Below the pieces are notes generated by a model, which searched no databases, was not told where the DNA came from, and was given only the letters and a program-made list of their open reading frames with translations. DNA of 25,029 bases, from positions 1-25,029 of the IMG/VR virus record IMGVR_UViG_3300046464_000573; one strand, 5' to 3'. How positions within the stretch are numbered: the stretch's first letter is position 1; each line of letters starts with the position of its first letter. Positions 1 to 17,356 of the stretch are shown here, one piece after another. This DNA is from a virus. The translations under genes were made by a program, and so were the position numbers.

Positions 1-3000
1 ATTTCATACAATCAGACAACTTGTTTAACACATCAGGATCTAGGATTGTAAGTTTAGTATCTCTAAGTGACAATCTAGAACCATTTGAAGTAAATCAAAG
101 TGTTGCTTTAATTGAAACATCTTCTGATCATGGTCTTGGTATTGGAGATTCTGTAGATATTAACATTTTTCCAGATGATGCAGCAAAAACAAAAACATAT
201 TATATTAGAAAAAGGTTATACCAAGAAGTAGTTTTAAGAGATCCATCCGAGTCTTCTACTTTAGACTTTGATGGTATTGGTGTATTTACTCTTCTGAATG
301 GTGGTGCTGATTATACGACAGGGACGTACACAGATATTCCAATCACAGGAGGTTCTGGTTCCGGTGCTACTGCAAATATTACAGTATCTACTGCTGGAGT
401 AATATCATCTTTCCAAATTAGTAATGGCGGATCTGGATATAATAGAGGAGATTATTTAGGTGTTGATGATGATCAGTTAGCAAGATCCGGTGCTTCTTTA
501 AGTTCTTCTAGACTTTCAGTTTATGTTGATCACGCAGGCACTGCTAGTTTTAGTACAGTAATCAAATTTAAATCTGCATTAGGTTTTGTCAATGGGGACT
601 TTGTTAGTATTGGTTCCGAAATTATGGAGATCTCTTCAATTTCTGGTAATGATGTAACTGTTATTAGAGGAAGAGAAGGGACCACAGCAGTAAATCATTA
701 CGATAAGCAATCCATATCTTTATTCAAACCTCGTTATAATTTCACACCAAATTTTGCAATATCTACTTCTGCTGGTGCTGGTCGAGTTTCTTCGTATGAT
801 TTAAACACACAGAAAGCTACAATTATATTTGATTATAGTATAAACTTAGCAAATGCTTCTACTTTACAGAATGGAGTAACTTTCTTTGATGCTAGCAGCA
901 CTCCAAGATTAGTAACAGTAAACTCTTCTTCAGAAACTAAATTTAAATTTGAGTTTTCAGAAGATAATACGACATTTACCCCAAATCCAAACATTAATAT
1001 TCAAGAATATTACAAATATGTTTTTGATACTTCGCATCCATCTTTATTGCAAACCTACTTTGATTTGAGTCCTAGTAGAAGTTTTAACTTACTGACCTTA
1101 GAAAAAGAAGAGTCATCTATTTTACCAGGAAATGTTGGATCTTTTACTAATGTAAAATTTGGATTTGGGTCAAGACTTGCACAAAACAATTTCCAAGAAA
1201 AAGTAAAAACTAACTTTACAAATTTTTATTATTTTGATAAAAATGGAATTGTAGATTCGGAAGGAAAGTTTCTTAAAATTATTACAGATCCATTACAAGG
1301 AACAAAAACTATTAACTATGTTACCCCCAATCGTTTTGTTTATGATATAACTTCGACTCCACTATGGGATGGTTCTGGAATTATTACTTATACTACTACA
1401 GGTAAATTTGCTATTGGTTCAATTGAAAATATTAAAATTGTCAATTTAGGAGATAATTACAAAAAACTTCCAATAATTATTGGTGTAAATCCTGCAAATG
1501 ATTTTAAAGCAGATGCTACTGTTTTATATGATACAGATGCTAATATTATTTCCGGTGTTAAAATTAATAATAATGGAAGTAATTACATAAAACCAAAAGT
1601 TTCTATAACAGATGGTGATGGTGTGGGAGCTACTTTCAAAATTTTACAAAATCAAGGTAAAATTGATACTATTGTTGTTGATAATCCTGGAAAAGGTTAC
1701 ACTAAAGCACCTGTAATTGAGATTATTGAAACGGATGTTAAGTTGTTTGCTGAAAGTGATCGTATTGGAGTTCCACTAACAATATCAATTATCAATAATG
1801 GTGGAGGTTATTATGTTGATGAAACAGTATCTTCAAACTACACTTCAAATTACACGTTACAATTAAAATCCACAGGGACAGAGTTTGAATATAAAAGAGG
1901 AGAAAGAGTAACACAAACTGTTAATAACGTAGAAGTATTTTCAGCAGAAGTTTCCGAATACCGAAAAGATTCAAATTTACTCAAAGTCAAAAAAGTTAAT
2001 GGTATCGTTAGGGAAAATGTTTCCATTTTAGGAAATATTTCCAGATCTACTGCCAAAGTTAAAAAAATATTTGTAAGTGTCTTAAAAGTAGATATTAGTA
2101 GCTACTATGATAACTTAGGATTTTACACTTCAGATAAAGGAAAGTTAGGTGTATCAAATCAAAAAATAACAGATAGTTTCTTCTATCAAGATTATTCTTA
2201 CGTTATTCAATCTAAAACTTCTATTGAACAGTGGAGAGACTTAATTAAGTCAACCACACATCCAGCAGGATTTAAATTATTTGGACAAGTAGATATTGAT
2301 ACTATTGGCAGTAATGAAATGCCAGTAGCATCTCGTAAAGCAGATACTTTTAGTATTATTCAATTATGGGATCCAGAAAAGAATAATATTACAGTTGAAA
2401 GCACTAAGCAAATAACTACACAAACAATTCAAACTGTAAGAACTAATAGTTTAGTAGAAGGTTCTGGATCTGCGGCAACCTCAGAATATAATTTCAATCA
2501 AACTCGTGCATTTAATTTTACATTACTACCAGCGTTTGATGGAACATTTAATTCGGATGGTCAATTAGTAGGAACAACATCTTTCCAAGTTAAAGATCCG
2601 CAAAATAATTCATTCTCTCCAGTTAGTGCAGAAAGTTTAATTATCACATTAGATGGAATTTTACAAGAACCAGGAGTTTCTTATACTGTATCTGGAGATA
2701 GAGTTATCTTTTCCCAACCACCTCTTGGTGCAGGTGCAAAATTAACTGGTCAAAGTTTAACTGCAACATCTGCATTCGAAGGATCTAGATTTGTAGGAAG
2801 AGCATATTATTTTACAGATGCTCAGTATAATACAAGGTATATAAGAAAATTAAGAAATATTTTCCAAAGAAATGGAATTTGGATTGATGCAGCTAATCAA
2901 ATTGATCGCAACAAGCAATTTATTATTGAAGAGTCTGTTGGTTATGGTCAAGAAAAATATCCAGAACTTGATTGGAGTACTAAGTTAGATGATTACTCTA

Positions 3001-6000
3001 TTGATATTGGTTATATTTTAGAAGCATATGAACATGATTTAAGATTTGGCGGAAATATAAAAGTATTTGATTACTCCACATTATTTGCAAATAATAGTGC
3101 TTATATCACAGAAAATAAAACAGAGTCTTTAGCAATTTTTAAATATGCTACAAACCTAGCAAATCTTTCAATTAGAAATTGGGACTACACTGATAATCTA
3201 GTTAGTTATATCTTAGGATCTAAAATTGTCAATGTTACAAATACCGACAACTTAGCAGTTGGTATGTTTATTAGTTCTGGAAAATCATTTAGCAGTGACA
3301 CAAAAATTGTTTCGATCGATAGTTTAACACAGGTAACATTAAATAAAATTGCTTTAGCAAATGCTGGTGGTGTTGTTGGTGCATCTGCAGGAATAACAAA
3401 TGTATCGGGAACTACTACTGGCAATGTTACTCTTGAGACTAGCACTTTAGCAGTCAATCCAGGCGAAACATATACCGTTTCTGATGGAGATATCATAAAT
3501 GTTCCACTTTCTATAAGTGGAAATGGCGTTGCAACTTTCTCTTTCAGTGCTGTTAATAATGGAACTTTTTATGATGCTTCCAATTTAATCAATGCAAACA
3601 AAGCATATTTACAAGAAGAAATTTCTCAACTAGTTTACGCTACTTATCCATCGCTATCAACATCAGTTTCAAAATGTTCTAGAGATTTAGGTTTCTTGAT
3701 TGATAATATTGTTTACCACTTAAAATTTGGTGGCAATGAAAAAGTTGTAGAATTTGCACAACTTTATTATACTAGAAAACCATATCCAATTGGAGAAGAA
3801 TTAGCATATCTAAACAGAACTCCTGATGAAACTGCTGCAGCAATATTAGCATGGGATAAGGTAGCAGAACTTGCTATTTTAGCAATGAGACAAACTCTTC
3901 CTGCAGGAACATATACATCAATTACTCCAGTAACAGATCCTGATATCATTACAGATTCAGAAACACCTATATGTGCGGAAGTTTCTTCTGCAATCAATTC
4001 TTACATAACAATTGTTAAAGATATTATAGAAGATGGTCCCGGCACAATTAATCCAACAAAACAAAATGAAAATAAGAGTGGAAATTGGACTAATAAATTA
4101 ACTTACTCTAATTACAATATTTTACCTGATCCTCTTCTTCCTGAAGAAGAATGCACTACTGTAATTTCATCTGTAAATTCTTTATATTTTTTACTAGATG
4201 ATATTTTAAATGATATAGAGTCTGATAAAACTCTTCCGGATTATGTGGATGGTGAAAATAAAGAATTTGAAATGTATTGGAGTAACGGAGATCAGGTAGT
4301 TCTTGAAAAATATGAAAATATTTTACTAACTTTAAATGCAGTCTTACAAGAAACTAAGTTTACAGCAGAATTCCCTGGAGATGATGCTTATTATATTGAT
4401 AAAACAGTAGTTCCTAATAAACTAATATTTGATGTTGCTCCAATATGGGATCAAGATTCTGGTGCTAGATCTTTAGGAGAACCAACTGCTGTAGAGAGAG
4501 TTGTTGGTAGGGGAGTAGGAAATTACAAGAGACTTACTATCCAACGAGATTTTATTAATAACGTAACAAAAGGTCCATTCTTAATTTTAGATCTTGAAGA
4601 TAATACAGTTGCAAATATCGAAGAACCAGATTATTTGCTAGTTTTTATTGATAGTGTATTACAAAAACCTGAAGATTCTTATGAAATATCTGGACCAAAT
4701 ATCACATTTAAGTTCCCAGTTACGGAACAGATGAAAATTGATTTTAGATATTTGTATGGTAGAGATATCGGTCAAATTCTAACAATCTATAATTATAATA
4801 AAAATATTTACAGTGCAAAATCTGTAGTTTCTTTAGAAGCTAATAGTAATATAGATGAATTTTTTACATTTTCTTGGATGAATGATAGAGTTGGCAACCC
4901 GATTCAAGCATATCAAATCAATGATAACGGATCTTTGAATATAATTGGTGATTGCTCAAACTTCTCTAATATTAATGGAACAGTAAGTTTCGATGTATTT
5001 GGTATTGAATGTGAACTAATTCAAGGTCGTGATGTATACTTCTGTATAAAAGGAAGATACTTCAAACCAGAAAGAATTATCATGGGAATTGATTCTAGTG
5101 GCAACACTATAACATACAATGTAGATGAAGTAGGAAGAAATCTTCTTGAAACTAAATCACAATCTTCCTCATCAAACCCATTCATTAGTTTAAGAAGTAA
5201 TTCTAGAATTAAAATTGAGGGTGAAGATAATTTTAGAAAAATTAAAATGCTTCCAACTCAAGTAACGAGTACAGAAGGAAGAAAACAACAGCAATTATCT
5301 AATTCTTTTTATGGTGAAGTTGATGTAAGTTCTTACAACGGAATTACTAGAGGTGAAGGATTGTCTGTAGTTGCTACTATAGAAAATGGTTCTGTTGTTG
5401 ATTTGACTTGGAACCAACGTAGTTATGACCCAATCACACAACCCACTGCATATCAATATTACACAACACCAGTATTGAATTTTATTCCGAAAGATGGAAA
5501 TGGTGGTGGTGCTAGAGCGAGAGTATTAGTAAACAACGGAGATGTTATAAGTGTTGATTTAATTGATGGTGGATCTGGATATACTCAAACCCCAAAAGTT
5601 GTTGTTGCTAGAAAATATGCAATTGAAAAAGGACCTGATGGTGGCGGAATTGGACTAAATGAACTTATTTTAGATATTACGAGTCGAATATTTCTTGATG
5701 TATCTGTCATATCCAACGTTTCTGTTGTTGGAAGTCAAATTCCTGGAATTAACTCCTTCACTTCTATTTTATTTGATAGTCCAGTAGCATCAGATAGGCA
5801 AATTGAAAACATTATTACACCAAAATTATTAGAAGTAAGTGAGGATTTGAATGCTCAACTTGATGTTGGAAATGTAATTATTGAATTGGATTTACAAAAT
5901 GTAGATACTCAATTTAAAGAAACTACAGTAACAAATATTATTAGCACTCCATATATTGTTGATATTGAATCTTCTTCTACACTCATTGCATCAGCAACAC

Positions 6001-7244
6001 GAGAGATAACTTCTAGTGTTAATAATGTTATAAACAATACTGCACTTTCCAATATTAATTATTATGCTACTGGTGCATTCTTAGATCTTCCACTAACTGC
6101 AACAGATAACATTGTATACATTACTGATACTTCCAAATTTAGTTCTTATGGTTACTTATTAATTGGCACTGAAGTAGTTCGCTACTATCGTAAGATGAAT
6201 GATCGCTTCTTAATGGTACAAAGAGGCGAAAACAACACGACTGCACAATCGTGGAATGCTGGAATATTCATTAGACAAATTCCAGATCCAACTGTATCAC
6301 TTTCTGTTGGTGTAACTATTGTTGAATCTGATTCTTTATTAGTCACTATGCCTGCTGCATCACAGTTAGGTAAAAAAGAAACTAAGACTAGTAGTCAAGT
6401 AATTACCCCAATAACCACCATCAATCAAACTAATATTGATATTGTAATTGGATCAAATGTAGAAATTAATACAGAAATTTCTTCGGTTACTTTAGAAACA
6501 GTTAAAGTTATTCAAACACACTTGTTTGATATAGTTTCAATGTCGCAATTAGCGACAAACACTGAAGTTCTTAATAATGTTCAAATTTCTACTCCCACAC
6601 AAACAATAACAAAAAATCAGTTTGAACTTCTAAGAATACCACCTCCATCAGGAGTTATTGACAGATATCAAGAGTCGGTATTCATAACAGATCCTATTAG
6701 CACAAGATCTGGACTAGTCGATATTCTAGAACTATCAAATAATGTATATGAAGTTATTACTAGAAGTGGAGACAGTATTATTGTTGGAAATAAATCTTCA
6801 ACTCAAAATGAATATCAAGGCAATTATAGTATATCAAATGCTGGATATACAATCGGATCTTTCCAAAGTTCTTTTGATAGCGGGACAGCAAATGTTTCTG
6901 GAATAACATTAATAGAATTTGCTATGATGTATAGTGATATGACTATTAGAGACTTTGAGGAAAGATCAAATTCTAGTTTCACATTGAGTGGAAGAATATT
7001 TAACTTACTACCACCATCTATTCAAAATCCGGTTGCAACAACAACATCCAGTGGAACTATACCTACTACAATTGTTGTATTAAATACTACATATTTCCCA
7101 GATTCTGGATATTTATTTACTTCTAGTGGATCGGTAATTCAATACACTGGCAAAACATCTACTGAATTTACTGGTTGCACTTTGTTTAGAGGACCAAATT
7201 CCATTACTTCTGGTGATGAATTGATACCCTTTACAGTTTACTGA
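1..7244 (+). CDS. Giant gp7-like baseplate wedge protein (5' partial)
   Basis: The frame is open from base 3 with no plausible start, so the gene begins upstream; 2413 codons are visible. At about 2175-2291 it encodes a segment with the pattern YQDYSYVIQSK, W-RD, then HPAGFKLFGQV. This matches the late part of T4 gp7 (SYYVMKIKS, SRWKSDVIRF, VHPVGFGF), and lying directly before a gp8 homologue supports the gp7 position. T4 gp7 ends roughly 135 residues after that motif, whereas this protein runs on for about 1650. The extension holds DGILQEPG-type segments (about 2637-2730 and 4630-4775), two copies of a helical FGGN domain (2890-3195, 3577-3900), a GM/SDTK module (3210-3540), a GGSGY module (5472-5615) and an RG-type beta module near the C-terminus. 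No signal peptide or membrane segment is in view. Basis: motif comparison from memory. The gp7 relationship is moderately sure; roles of the extension are unknown. Confidence 0.72.
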   Translation, partial: FIQSDNLFNTSGSRIVSLVSLSDNLEPFEVNQSVALIETSSDHGLGIGDSVDINIFPDDAAKTKTYYIRKRLYQEVVLRDPSESSTLDFDGIGVFTLLNGGADYTTGTYTDIPITGGSGSGATANITVSTAGVISSFQISNGGSGYNRGDYLGVDDDQLARSGASLSSSRLSVYVDHAGTASFSTVIKFKSALGFVNGDFVSIGSEIMEISSISGNDVTVIRGREGTTAVNHYDKQSISLFKPRYNFTPNFAISTSAGAGRVSSYDLNTQKATIIFDYSINLANASTLQNGVTFFDASSTPRLVTVNSSSETKFKFEFSEDNTTFTPNPNINIQEYYKYVFDTSHPSLLQTYFDLSPSRSFNLLTLEKEESSILPGNVGSFTNVKFGFGSRLAQNNFQEKVKTNFTNFYYFDKNGIVDSEGKFLKIITDPLQGTKTINYVTPNRFVYDITSTPLWDGSGIITYTTTGKFAIGSIENIKIVNLGDNYKKLPIIIGVNPANDFKADATVLYDTDANIISGVKINNNGSNYIKPKVSITDGDGVGATFKILQNQGKIDTIVVDNPGKGYTKAPVIEIIETDVKLFAESDRIGVPLTISIINNGGGYYVDETVSSNYTSNYTLQLKSTGTEFEYKRGERVTQTVNNVEVFSAEVSEYRKDSNLLKVKKVNGIVRENVSILGNISRSTAKVKKIFVSVLKVDISSYYDNLGFYTSDKGKLGVSNQKITDSFFYQDYSYVIQSKTSIEQWRDLIKSTTHPAGFKLFGQVDIDTIGSNEMPVASRKADTFSIIQLWDPEKNNITVESTKQITTQTIQTVRTNSLVEGSGSAATSEYNFNQTRAFNFTLLPAFDGTFNSDGQLVGTTSFQVKDPQNNSFSPVSAESLIITLDGILQEPGVSYTVSGDRVIFSQPPLGAGAKLTGQSLTATSAFEGSRFVGRAYYFTDAQYNTRYIRKLRNIFQRNGIWIDAANQIDRNKQFIIEESVGYGQEKYPELDWSTKLDDYSIDIGYILEAYEHDLRFGGNIKVFDYSTLFANNSAYITENKTESLAIFKYATNLANLSIRNWDYTDNLVSYILGSKIVNVTNTDNLAVGMFISSGKSFSSDTKIVSIDSLTQVTLNKIALANAGGVVGASAGITNVSGTTTGNVTLETSTLAVNPGETYTVSDGDIINVPLSISGNGVATFSFSAVNNGTFYDASNLINANKAYLQEEISQLVYATYPSLSTSVSKCSRDLGFLIDNIVYHLKFGGNEKVVEFAQLYYTRKPYPIGEELAYLNRTPDETAAAILAWDKVAELAILAMRQTLPAGTYTSITPVTDPDIITDSETPICAEVSSAINSYITIVKDIIEDGPGTINPTKQNENKSGNWTNKLTYSNYNILPDPLLPEEECTTVISSVNSLYFLLDDILNDIESDKTLPDYVDGENKEFEMYWSNGDQVVLEKYENILLTLNAVLQETKFTAEFPGDDAYYIDKTVVPNKLIFDVAPIWDQDSGARSLGEPTAVERVVGRGVGNYKRLTIQRDFINNVTKGPFLILDLEDNTVANIEEPDYLLVFIDSVLQKPEDSYEISGPNITFKFPVTEQMKIDFRYLYGRDIGQILTIYNYNKNIYSAKSVVSLEANSNIDEFFTFSWMNDRVGNPIQAYQINDNGSLNIIGDCSNFSNINGTVSFDVFGIECELIQGRDVYFCIKGRYFKPERIIMGIDSSGNTITYNVDEVGRNLLETKSQSSSSNPFISLRSNSRIKIEGEDNFRKIKMLPTQVTSTEGRKQQQLSNSFYGEVDVSSYNGITRGEGLSVVATIENGSVVDLTWNQRSYDPITQPTAYQYYTTPVLNFIPKDGNGGGARARVLVNNGDVISVDLIDGGSGYTQTPKVVVARKYAIEKGPDGGGIGLNELILDITSRIFLDVSVISNVSVVGSQIPGINSFTSILFDSPVASDRQIENIITPKLLEVSEDLNAQLDVGNVIIELDLQNVDTQFKETTVTNIISTPYIVDIESSSTLIASATREITSSVNNVINNTALSNINYYATGAFLDLPLTATDNIVYITDTSKFSSYGYLLIGTEVVRYYRKMNDRFLMVQRGENNTTAQSWNAGIFIRQIPDPTVSLSVGVTIVESDSLLVTMPAASQLGKKETKTSSQVITPITTINQTNIDIVIGSNVEINTEISSVTLETVKVIQTHLFDIVSMSQLATNTEVLNNVQISTPTQTITKNQFELLRIPPPSGVIDRYQESVFITDPISTRSGLVDILELSNNVYEVITRSGDSIIVGNKSSTQNEYQGNYSISNAGYTIGSFQSSFDSGTANVSGITLIEFAMMYSDMTIRDFEERSNSSFTLSGRIFNLLPPSIQNPVATTTSSGTIPTTIVVLNTTYFPDSGYLFTSSGSVIQYTGKTSTEFTGCTLFRGPNSITSGDELIPFTVY
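2890..3900 (+). repeat. Duplicated helical FGGN domain split by a beta module
   Basis: Two diverged copies lie in the gp7-like protein. Copy 1 (about 2890-3195) contains IDRNKQFIIEE, YPEL, DIGYILEAYEHDLRFGGN and K-FDYS. Copy 2 (about 3577-3900) contains INANKAYLQEE, YPSL, RDLGFLIDNIVYHLKFGGN and KVVEFA, followed by a helix rich in A and L. The order of matching elements is the same in both. Between them (about 3210-3540) sits a beta-type segment that also occurs in the gene at 17559. I recall similar FGGN segments in large structural proteins of marine cyanophages; their role is unknown to me. Confidence 0.7.
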
Positions 7245-7303: not shown

Positions 7304-9142
7304 ATGGCTGCTATTATCTCTGATAAGTTTCGTATTTTTAACGCGAAACAATTCCTGGAATCACTAACCGAAGGTGCTAGTGATACAGGTGCAGATCGCA
7401 CAAGAATGTATTTCTTCGTCGGTCGTCCACAACCGTGGAAAACATATTTAGAAATTCATGCTAAAGGAAGCACGAATTTTACTGTAGGAAATGAAATTTT
7501 TGTCGGCACTACTGCTGGCAATTACGCCACCACGGCATTTAAAGGAACAATCGCTGCAGTTTATGATACTGCACTCCTTATAACTGATGTTGGTGGCACA
7601 TCTGGTATTAATTCAAAACCACCAATTAATTCCTCACTTAGAGAAACATCAGATGCTGGTAGTACTATTACTGCTGACGCAACTGCATTTTCTGGTGTAT
7701 ATCGTTATGCTACAGAAGAAATTCCGCCTGCACCTCTAGACAACCAGAGAGAAAAAGTAGAAATTTATGACGAATTAATTGCAGCAAAACGTATTACTAG
7801 TGCATTTGCTAGAACTGTAATTCGTCGTTATAACTGGGATGTAGCTGTAAATCCTAAGTTTGATATGTGGAAACCTGACTATTCTGCAAGTCCTGCAGGC
7901 AGTGGTCAAATTGGCAAGACAACTGCAACTGGTGAAGACTCCATTTCAAATGCTAAATTCTATGTTCTAAACTCAGATTATGAAGTATTCAAGTGTCTTT
8001 ATAATGGAGAGAATGAGACATTTCCCAGTGGTCAAAATGCTGTAGAAGAACCATCGACTTCTTCGGGTAACTATTCTAACGGAATTTACACAGCATCAGA
8101 TGCTAGTGGATATATCTGGAAGTATATGTATACTATGCCTACCGATGATGTTCTAAGATTCCTTTCTTCGGACTTCATGCCTATTGTCCTTCCAAGTAAC
8201 AATTCACGTACAAACGTAGTTTCTGCTGCTATTGATGGTGCAGTTGAAGTTGCTATTATTGAAAAAGCGGGAACTGGTCTTCCTGCTTCTACTATTTTAT
8301 ATACCTCTATTAAAGGTGATGGAGTTGGTGGAGTAGTTAAGTTTGAAACAAATGGCAGTGGAACTATTACTTCTGCTAGCATTCAAACTAAAGGAACTGG
8401 ATACACATATGGTCAAGTTCTGCTAGGAAACGGTAATTTATTCTCCGACTCTACTTTATCAAATTCTGTCGCTACTGGTGCTTCTGCGGTTGGTGCTATT
8501 GAAGTTATTATGTCGCCTAAGGGTGGACATGGTTCTGACCACGAGCAAGAACTAAATGGTAAGCGTGTAATGACTAACATTCGCCTTACTTATTCTGAAG
8601 GTTCTGGTGACTTCCCAGTAGATAATGACTTCCGTCGTATTGGTATTCTTAAGGATCCTTTTGACTTTGGTACAACTACTCCATGCACTCTTGACACCCG
8701 TTCGGGTCTAAAGGCAGTCAAGATCACTGGAGGATCTGCCAACTTTATTCCAGATGAGCAAATTACTCAAACTGTAAGTGGTGGAACTGCAAAAGGAACT
8801 GTTGTTTCATGGACTCTAGATAGCGGTTCAACTACTGCAGGAGTTCTTAAGTATATCCAAACAGTTGATAGTGATCAAGATCAGGGTGTTGTAAGAGCAT
8901 TTGAAAGCACTGCCAACGCAATTACTGGTGGTCTTAGTGCAGCGTCTGGTAATGTTGATACAAACTACTTTGGTTCACTTTTGGGCACTCAGTTTCCTGG
9001 AGTTGATGCTTCTAGCGCAACTGGATTGGCAAATCCAGAAATCGAAAATAATTCGGGTGAAGTTATTTACTTAGAAAATCGTCGCCTAATTACTCGTGCT
9101 GCTGACCAAATTGAAGATATTAAACTGGTCATTGAGTTCTGA
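7304..9142 (+). CDS. 8: Baseplate wedge protein, T4 gp8-like, with inserted modules
   Basis: The 612-residue product aligns in blocks with T4 gp8 (334 residues), which joins gp7, gp10, gp6, gp53 and gp25 in the baseplate wedge. Matching blocks: IISDKFRIFNAKQF at the start (T4 SKFRTEKMLNF); YFFVGRPQPW, residues 36-45 (T4 ITFGRSEPW); VIRRYNWD, about 167 (T4 VIPRRDWGD); GYIWKYMYTMP, about 270 (T4 GYVWEYLFEIP); RRIGILKDP, about 444 (T4 RQISIITNP); and the last 29 residues with SGEVIYLENR (T4 SGEMIYMENR) and DQIEDI (T4 DQTEEI). Extra length comes largely from two inserts, a GTGY-type beta module at about 306-400 and a GE-type module with SGGTAKGTV at about 465-560. The ATG at 7304 fits the homologous N-terminus; only weak CGGA lies upstream. 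Codon use differs from the preceding gene: arginine is often CGT and GC is higher. It is followed by its own terminator. Confidence 0.9.
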   Translation: MAAIISDKFRIFNAKQFLESLTEGASDTGADRTRMYFFVGRPQPWKTYLEIHAKGSTNFTVGNEIFVGTTAGNYATTAFKGTIAAVYDTALLITDVGGTSGINSKPPINSSLRETSDAGSTITADATAFSGVYRYATEEIPPAPLDNQREKVEIYDELIAAKRITSAFARTVIRRYNWDVAVNPKFDMWKPDYSASPAGSGQIGKTTATGEDSISNAKFYVLNSDYEVFKCLYNGENETFPSGQNAVEEPSTSSGNYSNGIYTASDASGYIWKYMYTMPTDDVLRFLSSDFMPIVLPSNNSRTNVVSAAIDGAVEVAIIEKAGTGLPASTILYTSIKGDGVGGVVKFETNGSGTITSASIQTKGTGYTYGQVLLGNGNLFSDSTLSNSVATGASAVGAIEVIMSPKGGHGSDHEQELNGKRVMTNIRLTYSEGSGDFPVDNDFRRIGILKDPFDFGTTTPCTLDTRSGLKAVKITGGSANFIPDEQITQTVSGGTAKGTVVSWTLDSGSTTAGVLKYIQTVDSDQDQGVVRAFESTANAITGGLSAASGNVDTNYFGSLLGTQFPGVDASSATGLANPEIENNSGEVIYLENRRLITRAADQIEDIKLVIEF

Positions 9143-9235: not shown

Positions 9236-12200
9236 ATGCCACAGAAGACAAACCTTAACGTAAATCCTTATTTCGAGGACTTTGACGCAAGTAAGAATTT
9301 TTACAAAATTCTATTCCGTCCTGGATATTCTATTCAAACTAGAGAATTAACACAAATACAATCTATTCTACAGAATCAGATTGAAAGTTATGGCAAGTAT
9401 GCTTTTAAACAAGGCGACCTAGTTGTTCCTGGAGAAGTTGGACTTAATACTAGATTAGACTATGTAAAGTTATCTTCCGTATCAGAAGTTGCTGTCAATG
9501 AAGGAAATGATATTGTATATAAAAAATATGATATTACTCAACTTATAGGACTGAAATTAAAAGGTTTAAGTTCTGGTGTTATTGCTACTGTATTAAAAAG
9601 TAAATTAGGCAATGATACTAGATCAGATACATTGTATGTAAATTATTTAAATAGCGGCGACTCTAATACAGAACCAACTTTCCGTCAAGGTGAGACTTTA
9701 GAAGTTGTTGATGGAGTAAATACTCCACTTTTAGTGGTTGGAACAGATGGTAGTGTTTTGCCTACTAGTATTAGTATTACTGATCCGGACACACAAGAAT
9801 CTACTTCTTTAGAAAGTCCAGCAATGGGTTTTTCTTCTGCTGTTGAAGTAGAAGAAGGAATATATTTTGTAAATGGATTTTTTGTTAGAAATGAAAGAGA
9901 ACTTTTAATCATAGACAATTACTATGATATTCCATCTGCTAAAGTAGGATTTACTATTAGCGAAGATATTATTACCCCAGAAGAAGACTCAAGTCTTTAT
10001 GACAATTCTATTGGAGCTTCAAATTTTACTTCTCCTGGAGCACATAGGTTAAAGATTAGTTTAAATCTAACAAGATTTGATTTGAATGAAAAAACAGACA
10101 AAAATTTTATTCAACTAATTACAGTATATAAAGGATCTATACAAAAAAAAGTATCGGTAACTAATTACAGTTTAATTGAAAAGACACTTGCCAGAAGAAC
10201 TTATGATGAAAGTGGCGATTACATTGTAGATAATTTTTCTGTAGATATTAGAGAATATGCACAAAAAAATGGAAATGGCGGTATCTATAGCAAAGATGAA
10301 TTTGATAAAATTAATGGATTAACTGAAGCAGAAGCATCAAGAAAATTAATTGCTAGTATTGGTCCAGGAAAAGCATATATCCGTGGATTTGAAATTGTTA
10401 ATAAAGAAACAAAATATATTGAAGTAAATAAAGCAAGAGAAAGTCTTACTAGTGATAACATAAGGTTAAAAACAAAATCTTTACCAACTTTTAATATTAC
10501 CAATAACTACGGTAGTGTTCCACTTAACAAAGAAGGTGCTGAATTAACAGCATATCCATTTGTAAATTTGTACACCACATTTAGTGACGGATCGATTGGT
10601 CTGAACGATACAGAATTATCAACTGCACACAGACAAACTTTATCTAGAAGAGGTGAGTCTTTTAGTGTCGATGATGGTGTAAAAACTATTACTATTGATG
10701 TAACAGATACAAACAATCCAATTGTAGGATTTACCGGAGCTAATTTTCAATCTGAATTAGGAACTCTTTATTTTGTTAAGACTAGAGATGATTCTGGAAC
10801 AGCTGTTGCAACAGGGTCATTAAAATCTTTAGCATTTGCAAAAGTAAATAAACCATTACTTAATACTAATGATAATGTAAAATACTTAGAAATAACTGTT
10901 TTTGGAGACAAAGCAGATGTAGAACTTTTATTGAAAGAATATGATGAAGGTGATGCTGGAAAGAGGAGAAAAATATACACAACTCAAGCAGCTGCAGCTG
11001 CTGATACTGGTGAGTTAGGTTATATTGTAGATTATAGTGAAACTATTACTCCTTTAATTGGAAGAGCAAAACCAAATAATTTTTTCCTTAAGAAGAGAGG
11101 AACTGGATTTAATTCAGATTCTGATATTGTAATATCTAAAGGTCGTTTACCAGATGGTTCTCCGTCATATAATTCTATTTTTGGATTGTCGTATTTCGAT
11201 CCTGAGTTTTTCACTAAACTTATTTTAGACAATGCCCCATCTGAAGGCAGTTTCAATTTAGGGGATTATGTTTTTGGTTTAACCAGCGGTGCATATGGTG
11301 TTGTAGAAGGAGGTCCCTCTGGTAAATATTCTATTGGACCAATCCTTTTCGTCAAAACTCTATCTGGAAGATTTGTTTCTGGAGAAAGTATTCGAGATGA
11401 AAATAGCAATGTTTCTAGGATTGCAAAAGACAATACAATTTCACATTTTATTGTTGCTAATCCAGGACTTGGATATGCAAGCAATTCTGCTCTAGTTATT
11501 AACGGAGTAGAATATGACGCTGGTGTTGCAGAACTACAAAGACAAAGTAATGGTGGTTTTTACAGAGTAATTGTTAATAATAGAAATGCTTTATCAGTTG
11601 AGTATTCACAACCTCCAGCTGTAACAGTTGTTCAACCATCAGGATCATCTGATCCTTCTGTTGGTGCTTCTATCATTCCCGTTCTTTATAGGAATTCTGT
11701 AACAACGTATTCCCCTCAAAATGTTAAATCTCTTGCATCAGAATACGGTTCTGGAAATGAAAATGTATTTACAGCAGATGTTGTAATAGACGATAAAGAA
11801 TTTGCAGAAATTAAATCTGTAACTGAATTTACTTTCTTTGGAAGTAAAGGTTCTAATTTTGTAGAATCTACTAGTTTTAACGCAGATGCTAGTTTAGTTT
11901 TACAACAAGGAGATTTAGTACAGTTTACTGACGTAGACAATAGAATTGTTCGTTCAATTGTTCAATATGCGACAATTGCAGAAAGTTCTGCAAAGACAAG
12001 AATTTACTTAGATATAGCTTTACCAGGAGATGTTGTTAACACTAGTGTTGTTCGTTTACGACCTACAGTAGTTAATTCAAGTCAAGGTTCTTTAGTATTT
12101 CCTACTGGTAGTAAGCAGATCCAAAAAATTTCTACAACTCCTGAGCAAACTGATATTAAATATTTTTTCCGTAGAGATTTTGTAACTACAGCAGCATCTT

Positions 12201-15200
12201 CTGGTGGAACTATCACATTCGCTGCACAACTACCATTTGGAACTCAAAAGTTTGCTGAGTTTACAGAAAATAATTATATTATTACCGTATTAAATCCAGG
12301 GGATGCTCCAAATATACAAAGAGGTGATATTGTTTATGTTGAAAAAGATTTTATTACGATTACTTCATCTACAGATACTTCGAGTGGTCTTACTTCTGGA
12401 AGTATCAGTTTAAATCTGTCTTCTACTTATTTTGGAGCAATCCCAAGTAACGGAACATATCCAACATTAAAATTAAGTGCTACTTTAGAAGTAGAAAATG
12501 CAAAACCAAGATTAAAAACTTCTGTCGATAACAAAAGAATTGTAATTACTTCTTCTGGAGATCGTGTAATTCCATTCAGAGGAAAAGACTACGATAGTGA
12601 TGTAGTAGAAGTTATTACATATTCTGATGCTTACAAGTTAAGATATGTTTACGAAGGAAGTCAAACACAACCACCCAGTGTTGATACTGCAGGTAACTTA
12701 GTTTCCGGAACTGATGTAACTGATAGATTTACTTTCGATAATGGTCAAAGAGATACAGTATATGATGTTTCTAGGATTGTATTAAAATCGGGAGCAGTAG
12801 AAACTACTGGTCAATTAGTAGTTGCTTTCGATTATTTTGAACATTCACAAGGAGATTTTTGCACTATCGATAGTTATCTCCATGAAGCAGGAGTTCCTGA
12901 AGACGAAATTCCTTCATTCAATTCTACAGTCCATGGAATTGTAAATCTTAAGAATGTTATCGATTTCAGACCTAAGGTAGATTCAACCTCAACTATTTCG
13001 GGATTCCAAAATAAATCTTCTTTATCAAATACTATTGGAAGTTTTGCTAATTCTGGAGCAGTTATTGCATCCTCACCAGCATCAGATTCTAACTTGGAAT
13101 ACACATTATCATTCAGTCAAATTCAGTATCTCGATAGAATTGATGGAATTTTTCTTAATAAGAAAGGGCAATTTATTACCAAAGAAGGAAACTCTTCGTT
13201 GAATCCAACGAAACCTGATCCTGTTGATGATGCGATTCCACTTTTCTATGCATACATTCCTGCATATACAACTAACAGTAAAGATGTAAGAATTACCAAC
13301 ATCGATAACCGTCGTTATACAATGCGTGATATCGGTAAACTAGAAAAACGTATTGAACGTTTAGAGTATTATACTACATTAAGTATTCTAGAGCAGCAAG
13401 CTCTAAATATGCAAGTTAAAGATGAAATTGGTTTTGATAGATTTAAGAGTGGATTCTTAGTAGATAATTTTGAATCACATAGATCTGGTAATTTAGTATC
13501 TGCTGATTATCAATGTTCTATTGATTCTCAACAGTCTGTATTACGTCCACAATCAAAAGAAGATTCTTTCATCCTTAAAGAAAACAACGAAAGGGAAGAT
13601 CAAAGAGTTGTTTCTGGATATAAAAGATCTGGAGATATTGTTACTTTACCATACACAAATATAGAACTATTAGGAAATAGTTTTGCTTCAAAACCACTAA
13701 ACCCTAATCCGTTCGTTGTCCTTCAATATGTTGGAGATGTAAGTATATCACCAAGTATTGATCAGTGGTATGATCAAACTGCAACACCTTTGATTGTAGA
13801 TACCAACACTGATTTATATAAAATTTTCCTTTCTAAAGTAGATGTAACAGAGAGTTTTTCATCTTTACATAATTCATTTATTATAAACTGGGTTGGTTCT
13901 TCGCCATCATTTACTTCAATTAATTCTCTCGGTGGTGTCAATAGCATTGACTCACAAGCAACTGTAGAATCTGCATCTATTTCTAGTTCTTCTAATATTA
14001 GTCCTAATAATAATGACGTTGCTAAGGGAGTTCAAATTACTACAACTAGAGAAAGAAATGTTTCTTCTTCATTGCAGTTTTTTGCAAGGAGTATTCCAGT
14101 TAAGTATGTTCTCCAAAGATTAAAACCAAATACAGAGATTAGTGTATTCTTAGAAGGAAGAAATGTTAGTCGTTGGGTTAATCCCGATTTGAGATTTACT
14201 GGTGTGGCCACAAATTCATTGTCTTCTTTCAATGGAAAAATTGTTACAGATTCTGATGGAAATGCAAGTGGATTAATTATTATTCCTGCAGGTTTACCAC
14301 CATCCGAAAATACTACATGGACTGGTGATATAGACACGGTAGATTACGATGATTCTGCAGAAGAAATTAAAATAAGCACAGGAATCAAAACTTTTAGATT
14401 TACATCTAGTTCTACAGATTCCGATAAACTTAAAGTAGATACATATGCAGAAGTTAAGTATTATGCTACAGGAATTTTACCAAATAATCCTTCTAATATT
14501 ATTTCAACAAAACCAGCATACTTTAAAGCCAATGAGGGTATCCAATTTATCGATTCTAATACCGACAATCCGATAAGACCAAATCCATTGGCACAAACAT
14601 TCAAGATTGAAAATTATGATGGTGGTGTATTCACAACAGGGGTTGACCTCTACTTCAAGAAAAAGAGTACTGTTATCCCAATCAAAGTATATCTTTCAAA
14701 TGTAGATTCTGATAAACCAGGAAAAAATATTGTTCCTGGAACAGAAAGAATTCTATCACCTTTAACATTCTTAAAAGTATATACGAATGGTAATGTTAAT
14801 GTGACTAAAGGCGAAAATGTGGTTGGGTCTACAACTGCTGCAAGTGGTCCAATTGAAAAAATTATTGACAAAAATGGAGTTGATTTAGTTCCATCTTCAA
14901 CAGGAAGATTTTTGTTAACGAATGAGCAAGTGTATACCATGGTTCTTTCAAATCATAATGGTCGTTCATTTAACCAAAATGAATCTTTAACAATTCCATC
15001 AGTTACTTTAACAAATGCTACACAAGGAGAAACTGGACTAGTAACTATTGCTAAAGATAGTGGAAGTGTATCTGATATCAGAATTGTCAACACCGGAGAT
15101 AATTATGACAGTGCAATTATTTCTATCGAGAGTCCTCGACTTCCAGGAGGATCTGTTGCAACCTCTAGAATTGAAATTTCTGAAGGAAAAATTTATAATG

Positions 15201-17356
15201 CTGAAGTTTCATTAACAGGATTTGGATATACAGAAGCACCTTCAGTTGTCATCAAAGGCGTTGGAAATGGTGCTGGAGGGTGTGTTATGGAGACTTCTAT
15301 ATCAATTGATACACCTGCTGTTAGGATGGGCGTAGCAACCGATTTCGAAGGAGTTACAGAGTCTACTACACCAACTAAATTTATCTTTGATCATCCAGTT
15401 TATTTGCAAAATGATACTGAATATGCACTTGCTGTAGAAACCGATTCTGTAGATTATGAACTTTGGGCATCTAGACTAGGCGAAACTGACATTTCTACTA
15501 GTACGGTTATTACCACGCAACCATCTTTAGGTTCTGTTTACAAATCACAAAATATTGATAACTGGACTGAAGATAATTTTGAAGATCTTAAATTCTCATT
15601 GTATAGAGCAGAATTTGATATTAGTAGAACATCTGAATTAATTTTAAAGAACGAATCTCTTGGTTACGAATTGCTAAAAAACAATCCATTAGAAACTAGC
15701 GCCGGATCGAATACAAATGCTACGGCAAAACTATTTAAAAATAATAACAAAATTATACAAGTTCAACATAAAAATCATGGATTTGAAGATAGCGGAGACT
15801 CTAAGGTATTTTTCAGAACGGCATTGGGAACTGGTGGTATCACCGCTAATGTTTTAAATAGTCGATTGTTTACAATTTCGAATAGTGGAATTGATACTTA
15901 TAATATTACATCTACAACATCTTCAGCAAATAATACTGTTGGGGGAGGAAAGAATCTTTATGCTACCTATAACAGAAAATTTGAAGTTCTTTATCCACAA
16001 ATTCAATATTTAACATTTAGTTCTACTAAGTTAGAATCTACTGTTAAGACTACGGATGTTATTCCTGTGGACTCTACTACATCAACATATACATCATATA
16101 ATCAAAATAATTACGAAAAAACATTTTTGAATGAACCACATTATTTCACAAATCAGAAAATGATTTTATCTGAAGTAAATCAAACTTTTAATAATATTGA
16201 TAATTCGTTAACTTATAAGTTATCTTTATCTTCTGAAGTATCATATCTTTCTCCAGTAATTGATCTTTCAACTGCAAGTGTTAAGACTATCACAAATAGA
16301 ATTGAAAAATCAACCGGTAAAGAAAACAGATATGGAAGAAGAGATCAAATAATTCAATTTTTCCCTATCTATAAATTTAACTTATCAAATCTAGGTGGAT
16401 CTTCTATCCAAGATGATCAATCAATAGAAGGTCAAACTTCCAAAGCAATTGGAACAATTGCAAAAGTAGATGGCAACACTGTATGGGTACGAGTAAAAAC
16501 TGCACAGTATTTTAAAAGAGGTGAAAGATTAGCACTTGGTAATCAACCAACTTTAATTGAAACTGTCAATGGAATCGAAGTTCCACGAGCTACTGTAGAT
16601 ACAAACCCAATTCAATTGTTTATTGATATTGAAGATGCTTCTACAATCGTTGCTAGAAACCCATCTGTTTTTACAGAAACTTACGATAATAATATTACCG
16701 GAAGAACTGTAATTTGGAATAATAAAACTCAAGATTTAATTTTGAAAAATGATATTCAACCAATTAATGATGACTTCGATGGAAGAATTATTGATTCGGT
16801 AGCATTTAATAGAAATGCTATTACGGCAGATCAATTAAAAGATATCTTTAGAGTTGGAGATTTTGTAAAATATCCAGGTCAAGAAGATGCTGATGCAAAA
16901 TTACTTGAAATTGGAAAACTTACATATACAAATGGTGTAGAATTTGTTCCAGAAAATACTTCTGGAAACACTTCATCTATTGCAAAATATGTTACAAAAG
17001 AAGTTACGATCAATAATCCAGGAACTGCTATCAATGTCCAATTAACTTTGAACACCAAAGAGATTTCTGATGTTGCCGTTCTTTATAAGTATAAAACTGC
17101 ATCTAGTCAAGAAAATTTTGAAGATATTGATTGGGAATATTTTAACGAATCGGGAGAACCTGACAGTTTAGTTATTTCTACTCCAGAAAATACAATATCG
17201 TCCACATTAGAAAAGCAATCATCATATCAGGATATTAAATATAGTGTTTCTAATTTACCAGAATTTTCTGCTTTTTCTATTAAAATTGTCATGATGGGAA
17301 CTGATCCAGCATTTGTTCCCAAGATTCAGGATATTCGTGCTGTAGCAGCTTTCTAA
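9236..17356 (+). CDS. Giant virion structural protein, DUF4815-like
   Basis: This 2706-residue protein has the N-terminus I associate with DUF4815 phage proteins: KTNLNVNPYFEDFD, then NFYKILFRPGY, RELTQIQSILQNQI and KQGDLVVPGEV. Further conserved-looking blocks follow: FTFDNGQRDTVYDVSRIVLK and FDYFEHSQGDF (about 1162-1215); DFRPKVDS (about 1243); YTMRDIGKLEKRIERLEYYT, a probable coiled coil (about 1360-1380); RSIPVKYVLQRLKPNT (about 1618); PLAQTFKIENYDGGVF (about 1784); PVYLQNDTEYALAVETD (about 2054); and YKSQNIDNWTEDNFEDL-F-LYRAEF (about 2100-2127). Between the last PLAQTF region and PVYL lies a roughly 195-residue GFGY-type insert. No enzymatic motif, signal peptide or membrane span is seen. 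Position after gp8 suggests a peripheral baseplate or fibre-attachment component in the place of T4 gp9-gp12; this is inference. It has its own terminator-promoter pair upstream and ends nine bases before the next gene. Confidence 0.82.
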   Translation: MPQKTNLNVNPYFEDFDASKNFYKILFRPGYSIQTRELTQIQSILQNQIESYGKYAFKQGDLVVPGEVGLNTRLDYVKLSSVSEVAVNEGNDIVYKKYDITQLIGLKLKGLSSGVIATVLKSKLGNDTRSDTLYVNYLNSGDSNTEPTFRQGETLEVVDGVNTPLLVVGTDGSVLPTSISITDPDTQESTSLESPAMGFSSAVEVEEGIYFVNGFFVRNERELLIIDNYYDIPSAKVGFTISEDIITPEEDSSLYDNSIGASNFTSPGAHRLKISLNLTRFDLNEKTDKNFIQLITVYKGSIQKKVSVTNYSLIEKTLARRTYDESGDYIVDNFSVDIREYAQKNGNGGIYSKDEFDKINGLTEAEASRKLIASIGPGKAYIRGFEIVNKETKYIEVNKARESLTSDNIRLKTKSLPTFNITNNYGSVPLNKEGAELTAYPFVNLYTTFSDGSIGLNDTELSTAHRQTLSRRGESFSVDDGVKTITIDVTDTNNPIVGFTGANFQSELGTLYFVKTRDDSGTAVATGSLKSLAFAKVNKPLLNTNDNVKYLEITVFGDKADVELLLKEYDEGDAGKRRKIYTTQAAAAADTGELGYIVDYSETITPLIGRAKPNNFFLKKRGTGFNSDSDIVISKGRLPDGSPSYNSIFGLSYFDPEFFTKLILDNAPSEGSFNLGDYVFGLTSGAYGVVEGGPSGKYSIGPILFVKTLSGRFVSGESIRDENSNVSRIAKDNTISHFIVANPGLGYASNSALVINGVEYDAGVAELQRQSNGGFYRVIVNNRNALSVEYSQPPAVTVVQPSGSSDPSVGASIIPVLYRNSVTTYSPQNVKSLASEYGSGNENVFTADVVIDDKEFAEIKSVTEFTFFGSKGSNFVESTSFNADASLVLQQGDLVQFTDVDNRIVRSIVQYATIAESSAKTRIYLDIALPGDVVNTSVVRLRPTVVNSSQGSLVFPTGSKQIQKISTTPEQTDIKYFFRRDFVTTAASSGGTITFAAQLPFGTQKFAEFTENNYIITVLNPGDAPNIQRGDIVYVEKDFITITSSTDTSSGLTSGSISLNLSSTYFGAIPSNGTYPTLKLSATLEVENAKPRLKTSVDNKRIVITSSGDRVIPFRGKDYDSDVVEVITYSDAYKLRYVYEGSQTQPPSVDTAGNLVSGTDVTDRFTFDNGQRDTVYDVSRIVLKSGAVETTGQLVVAFDYFEHSQGDFCTIDSYLHEAGVPEDEIPSFNSTVHGIVNLKNVIDFRPKVDSTSTISGFQNKSSLSNTIGSFANSGAVIASSPASDSNLEYTLSFSQIQYLDRIDGIFLNKKGQFITKEGNSSLNPTKPDPVDDAIPLFYAYIPAYTTNSKDVRITNIDNRRYTMRDIGKLEKRIERLEYYTTLSILEQQALNMQVKDEIGFDRFKSGFLVDNFESHRSGNLVSADYQCSIDSQQSVLRPQSKEDSFILKENNEREDQRVVSGYKRSGDIVTLPYTNIELLGNSFASKPLNPNPFVVLQYVGDVSISPSIDQWYDQTATPLIVDTNTDLYKIFLSKVDVTESFSSLHNSFIINWVGSSPSFTSINSLGGVNSIDSQATVESASISSSSNISPNNNDVAKGVQITTTRERNVSSSLQFFARSIPVKYVLQRLKPNTEISVFLEGRNVSRWVNPDLRFTGVATNSLSSFNGKIVTDSDGNASGLIIIPAGLPPSENTTWTGDIDTVDYDDSAEEIKISTGIKTFRFTSSSTDSDKLKVDTYAEVKYYATGILPNNPSNIISTKPAYFKANEGIQFIDSNTDNPIRPNPLAQTFKIENYDGGVFTTGVDLYFKKKSTVIPIKVYLSNVDSDKPGKNIVPGTERILSPLTFLKVYTNGNVNVTKGENVVGSTTAASGPIEKIIDKNGVDLVPSSTGRFLLTNEQVYTMVLSNHNGRSFNQNESLTIPSVTLTNATQGETGLVTIAKDSGSVSDIRIVNTGDNYDSAIISIESPRLPGGSVATSRIEISEGKIYNAEVSLTGFGYTEAPSVVIKGVGNGAGGCVMETSISIDTPAVRMGVATDFEGVTESTTPTKFIFDHPVYLQNDTEYALAVETDSVDYELWASRLGETDISTSTVITTQPSLGSVYKSQNIDNWTEDNFEDLKFSLYRAEFDISRTSELILKNESLGYELLKNNPLETSAGSNTNATAKLFKNNNKIIQVQHKNHGFEDSGDSKVFFRTALGTGGITANVLNSRLFTISNSGIDTYNITSTTSSANNTVGGGKNLYATYNRKFEVLYPQIQYLTFSSTKLESTVKTTDVIPVDSTTSTYTSYNQNNYEKTFLNEPHYFTNQKMILSEVNQTFNNIDNSLTYKLSLSSEVSYLSPVIDLSTASVKTITNRIEKSTGKENRYGRRDQIIQFFPIYKFNLSNLGGSSIQDDQSIEGQTSKAIGTIAKVDGNTVWVRVKTAQYFKRGERLALGNQPTLIETVNGIEVPRATVDTNPIQLFIDIEDASTIVARNPSVFTETYDNNITGRTVIWNNKTQDLILKNDIQPINDDFDGRIIDSVAFNRNAITADQLKDIFRVGDFVKYPGQEDADAKLLEIGKLTYTNGVEFVPENTSGNTSSIAKYVTKEVTINNPGTAINVQLTLNTKEISDVAVLYKYKTASSQENFEDIDWEYFNESGEPDSLVISTPENTISSTLEKQSSYQDIKYSVSNLPEFSAFSIKIVMMGTDPAFVPKIQDIRAVAAF

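Follow-up and report, generated by a model that had tools for sequence, protein, structure and literature searches.

In phage T4, the baseplate wedge is initiated by gp7 (PDB 5IV5, 5HX2), which links two copies of gp6 in every wedge and whose gene occupies the slot between gp6 and gp8. According to a passage in PMC6300606, (gp6)2-gp7 forms the core bundle and the trifurcation. The T4 protein begins with fn3-like and other domains (residues 1-640), which are absent in the family described here, and continues with a helical and KG..S region and then a segment with HPVGF at residue 884. These last two elements recur, in the same order, in the gene that we analyse below.

The most similar described proteins are P-SSM4 'gp7' (AAX46881, 7,312 aa) and Syn9 gp101 (6,076 aa), which share both the gene slot and a split core with this gene. 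These two and S-SZBM1_208 differ from it in having a longer insert (2,689-2,780 residues) and a longer tail (2,570-3,715 residues), and the available portions of the published accounts of the three carry no mention of a split or of modules. Mass spectrometry of S-SZBM1 virions detected a 'baseplate wedge initiator' of 6,619 aa, with an entry of 71 in the peptide column of the table concerned (PMC9146016). The gp7 identity of such genes is not wholly new, because the P-SSM4 and S-CRM01 records already annotate the gene as gp7 or wedge initiator, a table in PMC5349666 that sets DLP6 beside other T4-type phages has a gp7 row, and Pfam includes the family PF23786 (Baseplate_wedge).

The giant gene and its neighbours

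The window, meaning the whole stretch of DNA that was analysed, is itself the virus record, complete at 25,029 bases, and thus the 5' end of its first gene cannot be read in this phage. Its nearest named relatives are the Synechococcus phages S-CAM4, ACG-2014 and S-RSM4, with a DNA identity of 67-71%. The first-pass annotation had described a frame running on to position 7244, and indeed no stop interrupts it between base 3 and the stop codon at 7242-7244, which gives 2,413 aa. It corresponds to residues 1082-3493 of the S-CAM4 homologue (3,494 aa) with 60.6% identity. The whole protein of this cyanomyovirus has about 3,500 residues and occupies the gp7 slot (gp25-gp6-X-gp8). We consider it very probable that this ORF makes up the last two thirds of the phage's gp7, with a core split by about 1,530 residues and followed by 1,644 more, and that it would work with two copies of gp6.

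The homologous genes of S-CAM4 and S-RSM4 are located directly between gp6 and gp8. In all 12 of the non-T4 isolate records, gp6 lies immediately upstream of the gp7-slot gene, and the window phage shows the downstream gp8 alone (Table 1). In P-SSM4, Syn9 and ACG-2014d, whose giant gp7 proteins exceed 6,000 aa, the stretch read downstream of the gene shows no gp8. For a possible fusion of gp8 into the P-SSM4 or Syn9 giants, the matches are short, weak (best E 9e-6 over 176 columns) and not clearly gp8. The VrlC-like protein of the window matches DUF4815 (PF16075, 8.3e-47), a family of unknown function.

Table 1. Positions of genes, core parts and modules, in the window unless a relative is named.
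Feature	Position	Strand	Remark
Giant gp7-slot protein, C-terminal 2,413 residues	3..7244	+	open frame, 5' end off window
Remaining part of the insertion between gp7 core halves	3..2087	+	YHYH domain and N-half upstream in relatives
GxGY module, copy 1	315..446	+	family HMM
'IG-E-V-Y...RG' module, copy 1	552..722	+	family HMM
GxGY modules, copies 2 and 3	1500..1724	+	family HMM
Closing half of gp7 core (...YQDYSYVIQSKTSIEQWRDLIKSTTHPAGFKLFGQVDI)	2088..2309	+	HPAGF segment
C-terminal extension, 1,644 residues	2310..7241	+	
'DGVLQ...YTVSG' beta module, copy 1	2625..2726	+	family HMM
Phycobiliprotein-like helical module, copy A	2868..3338	+	site 1 DYSID, without cysteine
Phycobiliprotein-like module, copy B	3555..4028	+	site 1 KCSRD (Cys 3675-3677), site 2 ICAEV (Cys 3972-3974)
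Partial third module copy, C-terminal third only	4056..4208	+	site 2 ECTTV
'DGVLQ' beta module, copy 2	4629..4718	+	family HMM
GxGY module, copy 4	5463..5606	+	family HMM
'RG' module, copy 2	6102..6287	+	family HMM
C-terminal ~170 residues	6729..7238	+	separate gene in S-PM2 (S-PM2d082; L008:19908-20435)
'RG' module, copy 3	7053..7238	+	family HMM
gp8, baseplate wedge (separate gene)	7304..9142	+	PF09215 E=1.7e-12
VrlC-like structural protein	9236..17356	+	unrelated to gp7 profiles
cpeT	S-CAM4 L179:2013-2537; S-RSM4 L180:14524-15048; S-PM2 L181:1909-2436		upstream of a tail gene of 3.8-4.5 thousand residues

A gp7 core split in two

A segment reading YVIQSK...HPAGFKLFG had been likened to a region near the end of T4 gp7. 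In the window ORF, YVIQSK is found at 2199-2216 and HPAGFKLFG at 2259-2285, and the T4 counterpart is SYYVMKIKSNLPSSRWKSDVIRFVHPVGFGF. Taken alone, this motif is marginal against T4. A closing-segment HMM built without T4 matched six of six T4-type gp7s at the right place (E 0.0013-0.11 among 1,867 ORFs), compared with 0.012 for the best unrelated ORF and 0.072 for the best decoy, and hhalign of the closing segment with T4 alone gave P=7.8. Direct comparison of the giants with T4-type gp7 was likewise weak (P=12 and 25.7), and the giant N-ends had no match in the PDB at E<=1. A marginal motif accords with the view that cyanomyoviruses lack gp7 and have VrlC in its place, in which case the ORF would be a fibre protein only and its motif a product of chance. 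In print, gp7 is described as absent and apparently substituted by VrlC in a passage of PMC7029224, and part of PMC3037559 lists it in the non-cyanophage core. We nevertheless hold replacement by VrlC to be very unlikely, because it is contradicted by a chain of profiles through minimal relatives and by the accompanying controls.

Short proteins occupy the gp7 slot in Desulfovibrio phage 7757 (586 aa), Pseudomonas phage pf16 (523 aa) and Stenotrophomonas phage Yut3 (503 aa), and minimal forms are also found in many metagenomic contigs, the shortest with about 388 aa. A profile of 31 minimal relatives (A5, comprising 27 of 37 minimal ORFs and four longer ones) aligned with T4-type gp7 over T4 residues 642-916, including HPVGF (hhalign P=97.6, E=3.8e-12), and with the giants (P=98.6). 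The closing segment of the window and its relatives aligned with the minimal family at P=98.9 (E=3.7e-17). The other sets were A6 (the window and 39 of 45 non-redundant segments, from 77), A7 (23 of 73 listed giant N-ends and three isolates) and A8 (the window and 23 of 80 segments). The hhalign controls (reversed, gp6, gp8, gp25, VrlC) reached at most 0.3; for VrlC, P was 0.2 against the minimal gp7 family and 1.0 against T4-type gp7. Moreover, many loci with the gp7 core also have a VrlC-like gene.

When the minimal-family profile was compared with 177,635 distinct PDB sequences, two T4-type gp7s alone fell below 0.01 (8.3e-8, 5.3e-6), and both show the two halves in order. Foldseek with a predicted minimal relative gave two matches below 0.001, both of them gp7 chains (9f4a_A0, 5iv5_BJ), from a weak model (pLDDT 60, pTM 0.34) that superposes on gp7 with an rmsd of about 15-21 Å. 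One minimal gp7 used as the query against viral contigs gave no match. Because the bridging minimal relatives link T4 gp7 to the giants, the gp7 relation of the giants is secure, and with it the resemblance first noticed in the motif.

Other searches point to the same gene. An N-half HMM built without T4 matched six of six T4-type gp7s at 1e-7 to 4e-6, with the best decoy at 2.0. The first-pass annotation had allowed for a separate gp7 elsewhere in the genome, but the searches found gp7-slot genes only. Over 13 phage records, the T4-type gp7 profile matched T4 gp7 and one place each in six others, always the gp7-slot gene, and had no match at E<=1 in the other six, among them S-CAM4, S-RSM4 and S-PM2. 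PF23786 matches gp7-slot genes exclusively, in 11 of 12 records, with the two ends of the model on the two core halves. However, this model lacks an insert of such size, and the window ORF scores 16.8 bits against it, below the 27-bit cut-off. The Pfam domains of T4 gp7 (PF21428, PF21427 and PF21456, the last for T4 domain VI) have no match at E<=1 in the window, S-CAM4 or S-RSM4. Since these models describe T4-type proteins, we describe the protein as a distant relative of gp7 rather than as a T4-type gp7.

The N-half of the core is composed of helices and a KR...YxxKGTxxS..F.F segment. It is present in 77 of 80 close relatives, where it lies upstream of the region corresponding to the window, and in the window phage it would lie outside the window. 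Of the three exceptions, two contigs are truncated at their 5' ends and L021 has an interrupted frame. The interruption of the giant gene in L021 (3569-9655) is either a sequencing error or a real split.

The N-half precedes the C-half in all 169 ORFs that have both, with gaps of 78-2,800 residues and tails of 15-3,715 residues, ranges that are not population frequencies because the sets were picked for their resemblance to the window and the Desulfovibrio protein. Among 80 distant loci, the gap spans 78-1,011 residues; in close relatives, where it could be measured at 77 of 80 loci, it is 1,528-1,794, and isolates have gaps of up to 2,800. Gap and tail lengths are uncorrelated in the distant set (r=-0.03, n=73).

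The extension after the motif, put at roughly 1650 residues in the first-pass annotation, is real and measures 1,644, as would be expected for an ordinary gp7 with a C-terminal extension only. Such a layout has very little to recommend it. The core halves of close relatives are separated by the distances given above, compared with roughly 150 residues between the two conserved motifs of T4, and the N-terminal half of T4 gp7 is missing, with no counterpart of T4 residues 1-640 in the regions aligned. The proposed 'gp7 plus extension' must give way to a core that in relatives is split by about 1,530 inserted residues, most of which precede the motif and part of which fall within the window.

In the insert, a Pfam scan identified a YHYH domain in S-CAM4 (3.1e-30) and S-RSM4 (1.1e-27). 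At the other end, the last ~170 residues form a separate gene in S-PM2, and thus joining or splitting occurred there. The inserted domain of a minimal gp7 (L117:4480-5649, model 133-227) resembles attachment domains of phage tail fibres and tailspikes, T7 gp17 among them (Z 4.3-8.1), a likeness of predicted structure that is suggestive.

Single-sequence BLAST found almost no internal repeats, and family HMMs of segments were needed to reveal them. With these, the window ORF has four GxGY, two 'DGVLQ' and three 'RG' modules and two full helical copies, in agreement with the repeated fibre-like modules noticed in the first-pass annotation. GxGY copies are also found in the window's gp8, VrlC-like protein, 1705-aa protein and last ORF, and the P-SSM4 and Syn9 giants have 19 each. 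The suggestion that functions of separate T4 proteins became fused onto the wedge initiator survives in part. Fibre-type modules are indeed fused, but gp8 is a separate gene and a Pfam scan at E<=1 found no T4 gp9, gp10, gp11 or gp12 domain in the window ORF. Thus, the fused parts are fibre-type and phycobiliprotein-like modules and not demonstrably T4 proteins.

Phycobiliprotein-like modules and phage pigment genes

Two modules of ~160 residues in the C-terminal extension have a predicted phycobiliprotein fold. A template-free AF2 model of window residues 780-1600 has a mean pLDDT of 66 and a pTM of 0.50, and its helical part is mostly at about 80-90. By VIA, model residues 400-564 gave Z scores of 13.6-15.6 and phycobiliproteins as all 50 matches listed, and in the best rows the predicted structure superposes at 2.2-2.5 Å over 129-139 residues. 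The modules resemble C-phycocyanin and phycoerythrin (PF00502) in predicted fold, size, a C-x-R-D site and a second cysteine. They differ from these proteins in being repeats embedded in giant tail proteins, in the score of the window copy, which is under the PF00502 threshold, and in that bilin attachment is putative.

Chance similarity among helical proteins would fit some of the scores. Foldseek gave the helical module a probability of 1.00 against phycobiliproteins with an E no better than 0.025, and a profile of close relatives' modules had phycobiliproteins as 17 of 17 matches at E<=5, with a best value of 0.17 that is not significant alone. In addition, the window module copy alone has no match to PF00502, and three non-cyanobacteria among 14 control genomes (E. 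coli, Thermus and Deinobacterium) do match this family at E<=1. We find such a coincidence scarcely credible when set against the structural matches and the broader profiles. A9, made from 12 module copies hand-picked for diversity, matched phycocyanin in the PDB at E=4.7e-7, and A10, made from 13 copies from other tail genes, gave 7.1e-5; phycobiliproteins accounted for 60 of 60 matches listed in each case. Likewise, PF00502 is the sole Pfam family in a tail protein of S-RSM4 (4,482 aa; E=3e-15, 57 bits) and in one of S-PM2 (3,779 aa; 1.1e-9, 38.8 bits), both above the curated cut-off of 22.2 bits, which among the control genomes only Synechococcus elongatus exceeds.

Matches to PF00502 at E<=1 occur in six of 13 phage genomes, all cyanophages and all in giant tail or baseplate frames, with two above the cut-off. 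A tblastn search of 50,697 phage records with copy B matched 305, named as Synechococcus phages (241), cyanophages (53), Prochlorococcus phages (10) and 'Marine' (1). Phycobiliprotein-like modules with C-x-x-D also occur in another S-CAM4 structural protein, encoded close to the baseplate operon (L001:43150-47973).

In the alignments, the KCSRD cysteine of copy B (window residue 1225) falls on phycocyanin alpha Cys84, a bilin-binding residue, and its Asp falls on Asp87. Across seven proteins, the site-1 cysteine is present in 21 of 26 covered copies, all 21 of which have Asp at +3. The second cysteine is kept in 16 of the 20 copies that cover its position. The 13 of 13 cysteine invariance of A10 is biased, because these copies were chosen for coverage from the listed tail-protein copies, with fragments and three longer copies set aside, and one omitted copy (L179:4900-5223) is without the cysteine; the unbiased value is 21 of 26. 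Among the close giants, C, R and D of this site are retained in copy B, and the position between Cys and Arg is freely variable. The window ORF has seven cysteines in 2,413 residues, and two of these are the site cysteines of copy B. The second, Cys1324, would fall on beta-chain residue 153 in the model if the last 19 residues align ungapped. A passage of PMC10452541 assigns CpeT to the CpcT type of lyase, whose members act on beta Cys153.

A gene for CpeT (PF06206) is present in five of the 13 genomes, all with module matches. In S-CAM4, S-RSM4 and S-PM2 it is on the same strand as the module-rich tail gene and 0.3-1.5 kb upstream of it, with tRNAs and small genes between, and the cpeT of Syn9 adjoins other tail genes. 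Five of six genomes with a PF00502 match have cpeT compared with none of seven without (one-sided p=0.005, kinship ignored), a co-occurrence confounded by kinship because S-CRM01 is the sole cyanophage among those seven. The position of cpeT near the module-rich tail gene is suggestive of a functional link, with kinship and a common tRNA and tail region as confounders. Bilin reductase (PF05996) was found in one of the 13 genomes, that of P-SSM4. In the part of PMC3037559 that discusses them, phage pcyA and pebS have a role described as 'a mystery', and the role of phage cpeT is termed 'unresolved'.

Tail and baseplate domains derived from host phycobiliproteins might still hold bilin on one or both cysteines, and CpeT (with PebS, PcyA and Ho1 where present) might pigment the virion tail rather than, or in addition to, the host antenna. 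We offer this as a tentative proposal and judge it rather unlikely. An alternative account is that the modules are a host-derived helical fold used as a spacer or receptor-binding domain, which carries no bilin and whose cysteines serve folding or disulphides. In its favour, the site-1 cysteine is missing from copy A and from three P-SSM4 copies, both cysteines are missing from two P-SSM4 copies in which the two sites are covered, PF00502 finds nothing in S-CRM01, and the modules sit in fibre-type proteins. A role without bilin does not readily accommodate the frequency of C-x-x-D and of the second cysteine, or the location of cpeT in S-CAM4, S-RSM4 and S-PM2, but we still regard it as somewhat more probable than not.

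A proposed place for the giant gp7 in the wedge

By analogy with T4 and other contractile systems, the two gp7 halves would come together as a core with two gp6. The insert and tail, with their fibre-type beta modules and two phycobiliprotein-like domains, would then project outward to make up the wedge periphery and fibre network, with a probable role in fibre attachment. According to a passage in PMC10457771, the gp7 orthologue of XM1, gp17, holds the tail spikes through two stretches that are unresolved in the structure, residues 80-106 inside the first domain and 201-242 at the end. Therefore, such sites are suggested to be tolerated growth points. In the available portions of the open-licence literature, no description of a split gp7 core or of phycobiliprotein domains in phage tails was found.

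These results correct a claim in print that cyano- and pelagimyophages lack gp7. They also reveal that a keystone of the baseplate accommodates insertions as long as about 2,800 residues, and thus the evolution of the wedge can be traced stepwise from minimal to giant forms. Finally, the tail proteins of these phages have phycobiliprotein-like domains that conserve residues of the bilin site. Such domains are a candidate substrate for phage CpeT and PebS, and they may help to explain why such viruses carry pigment genes.
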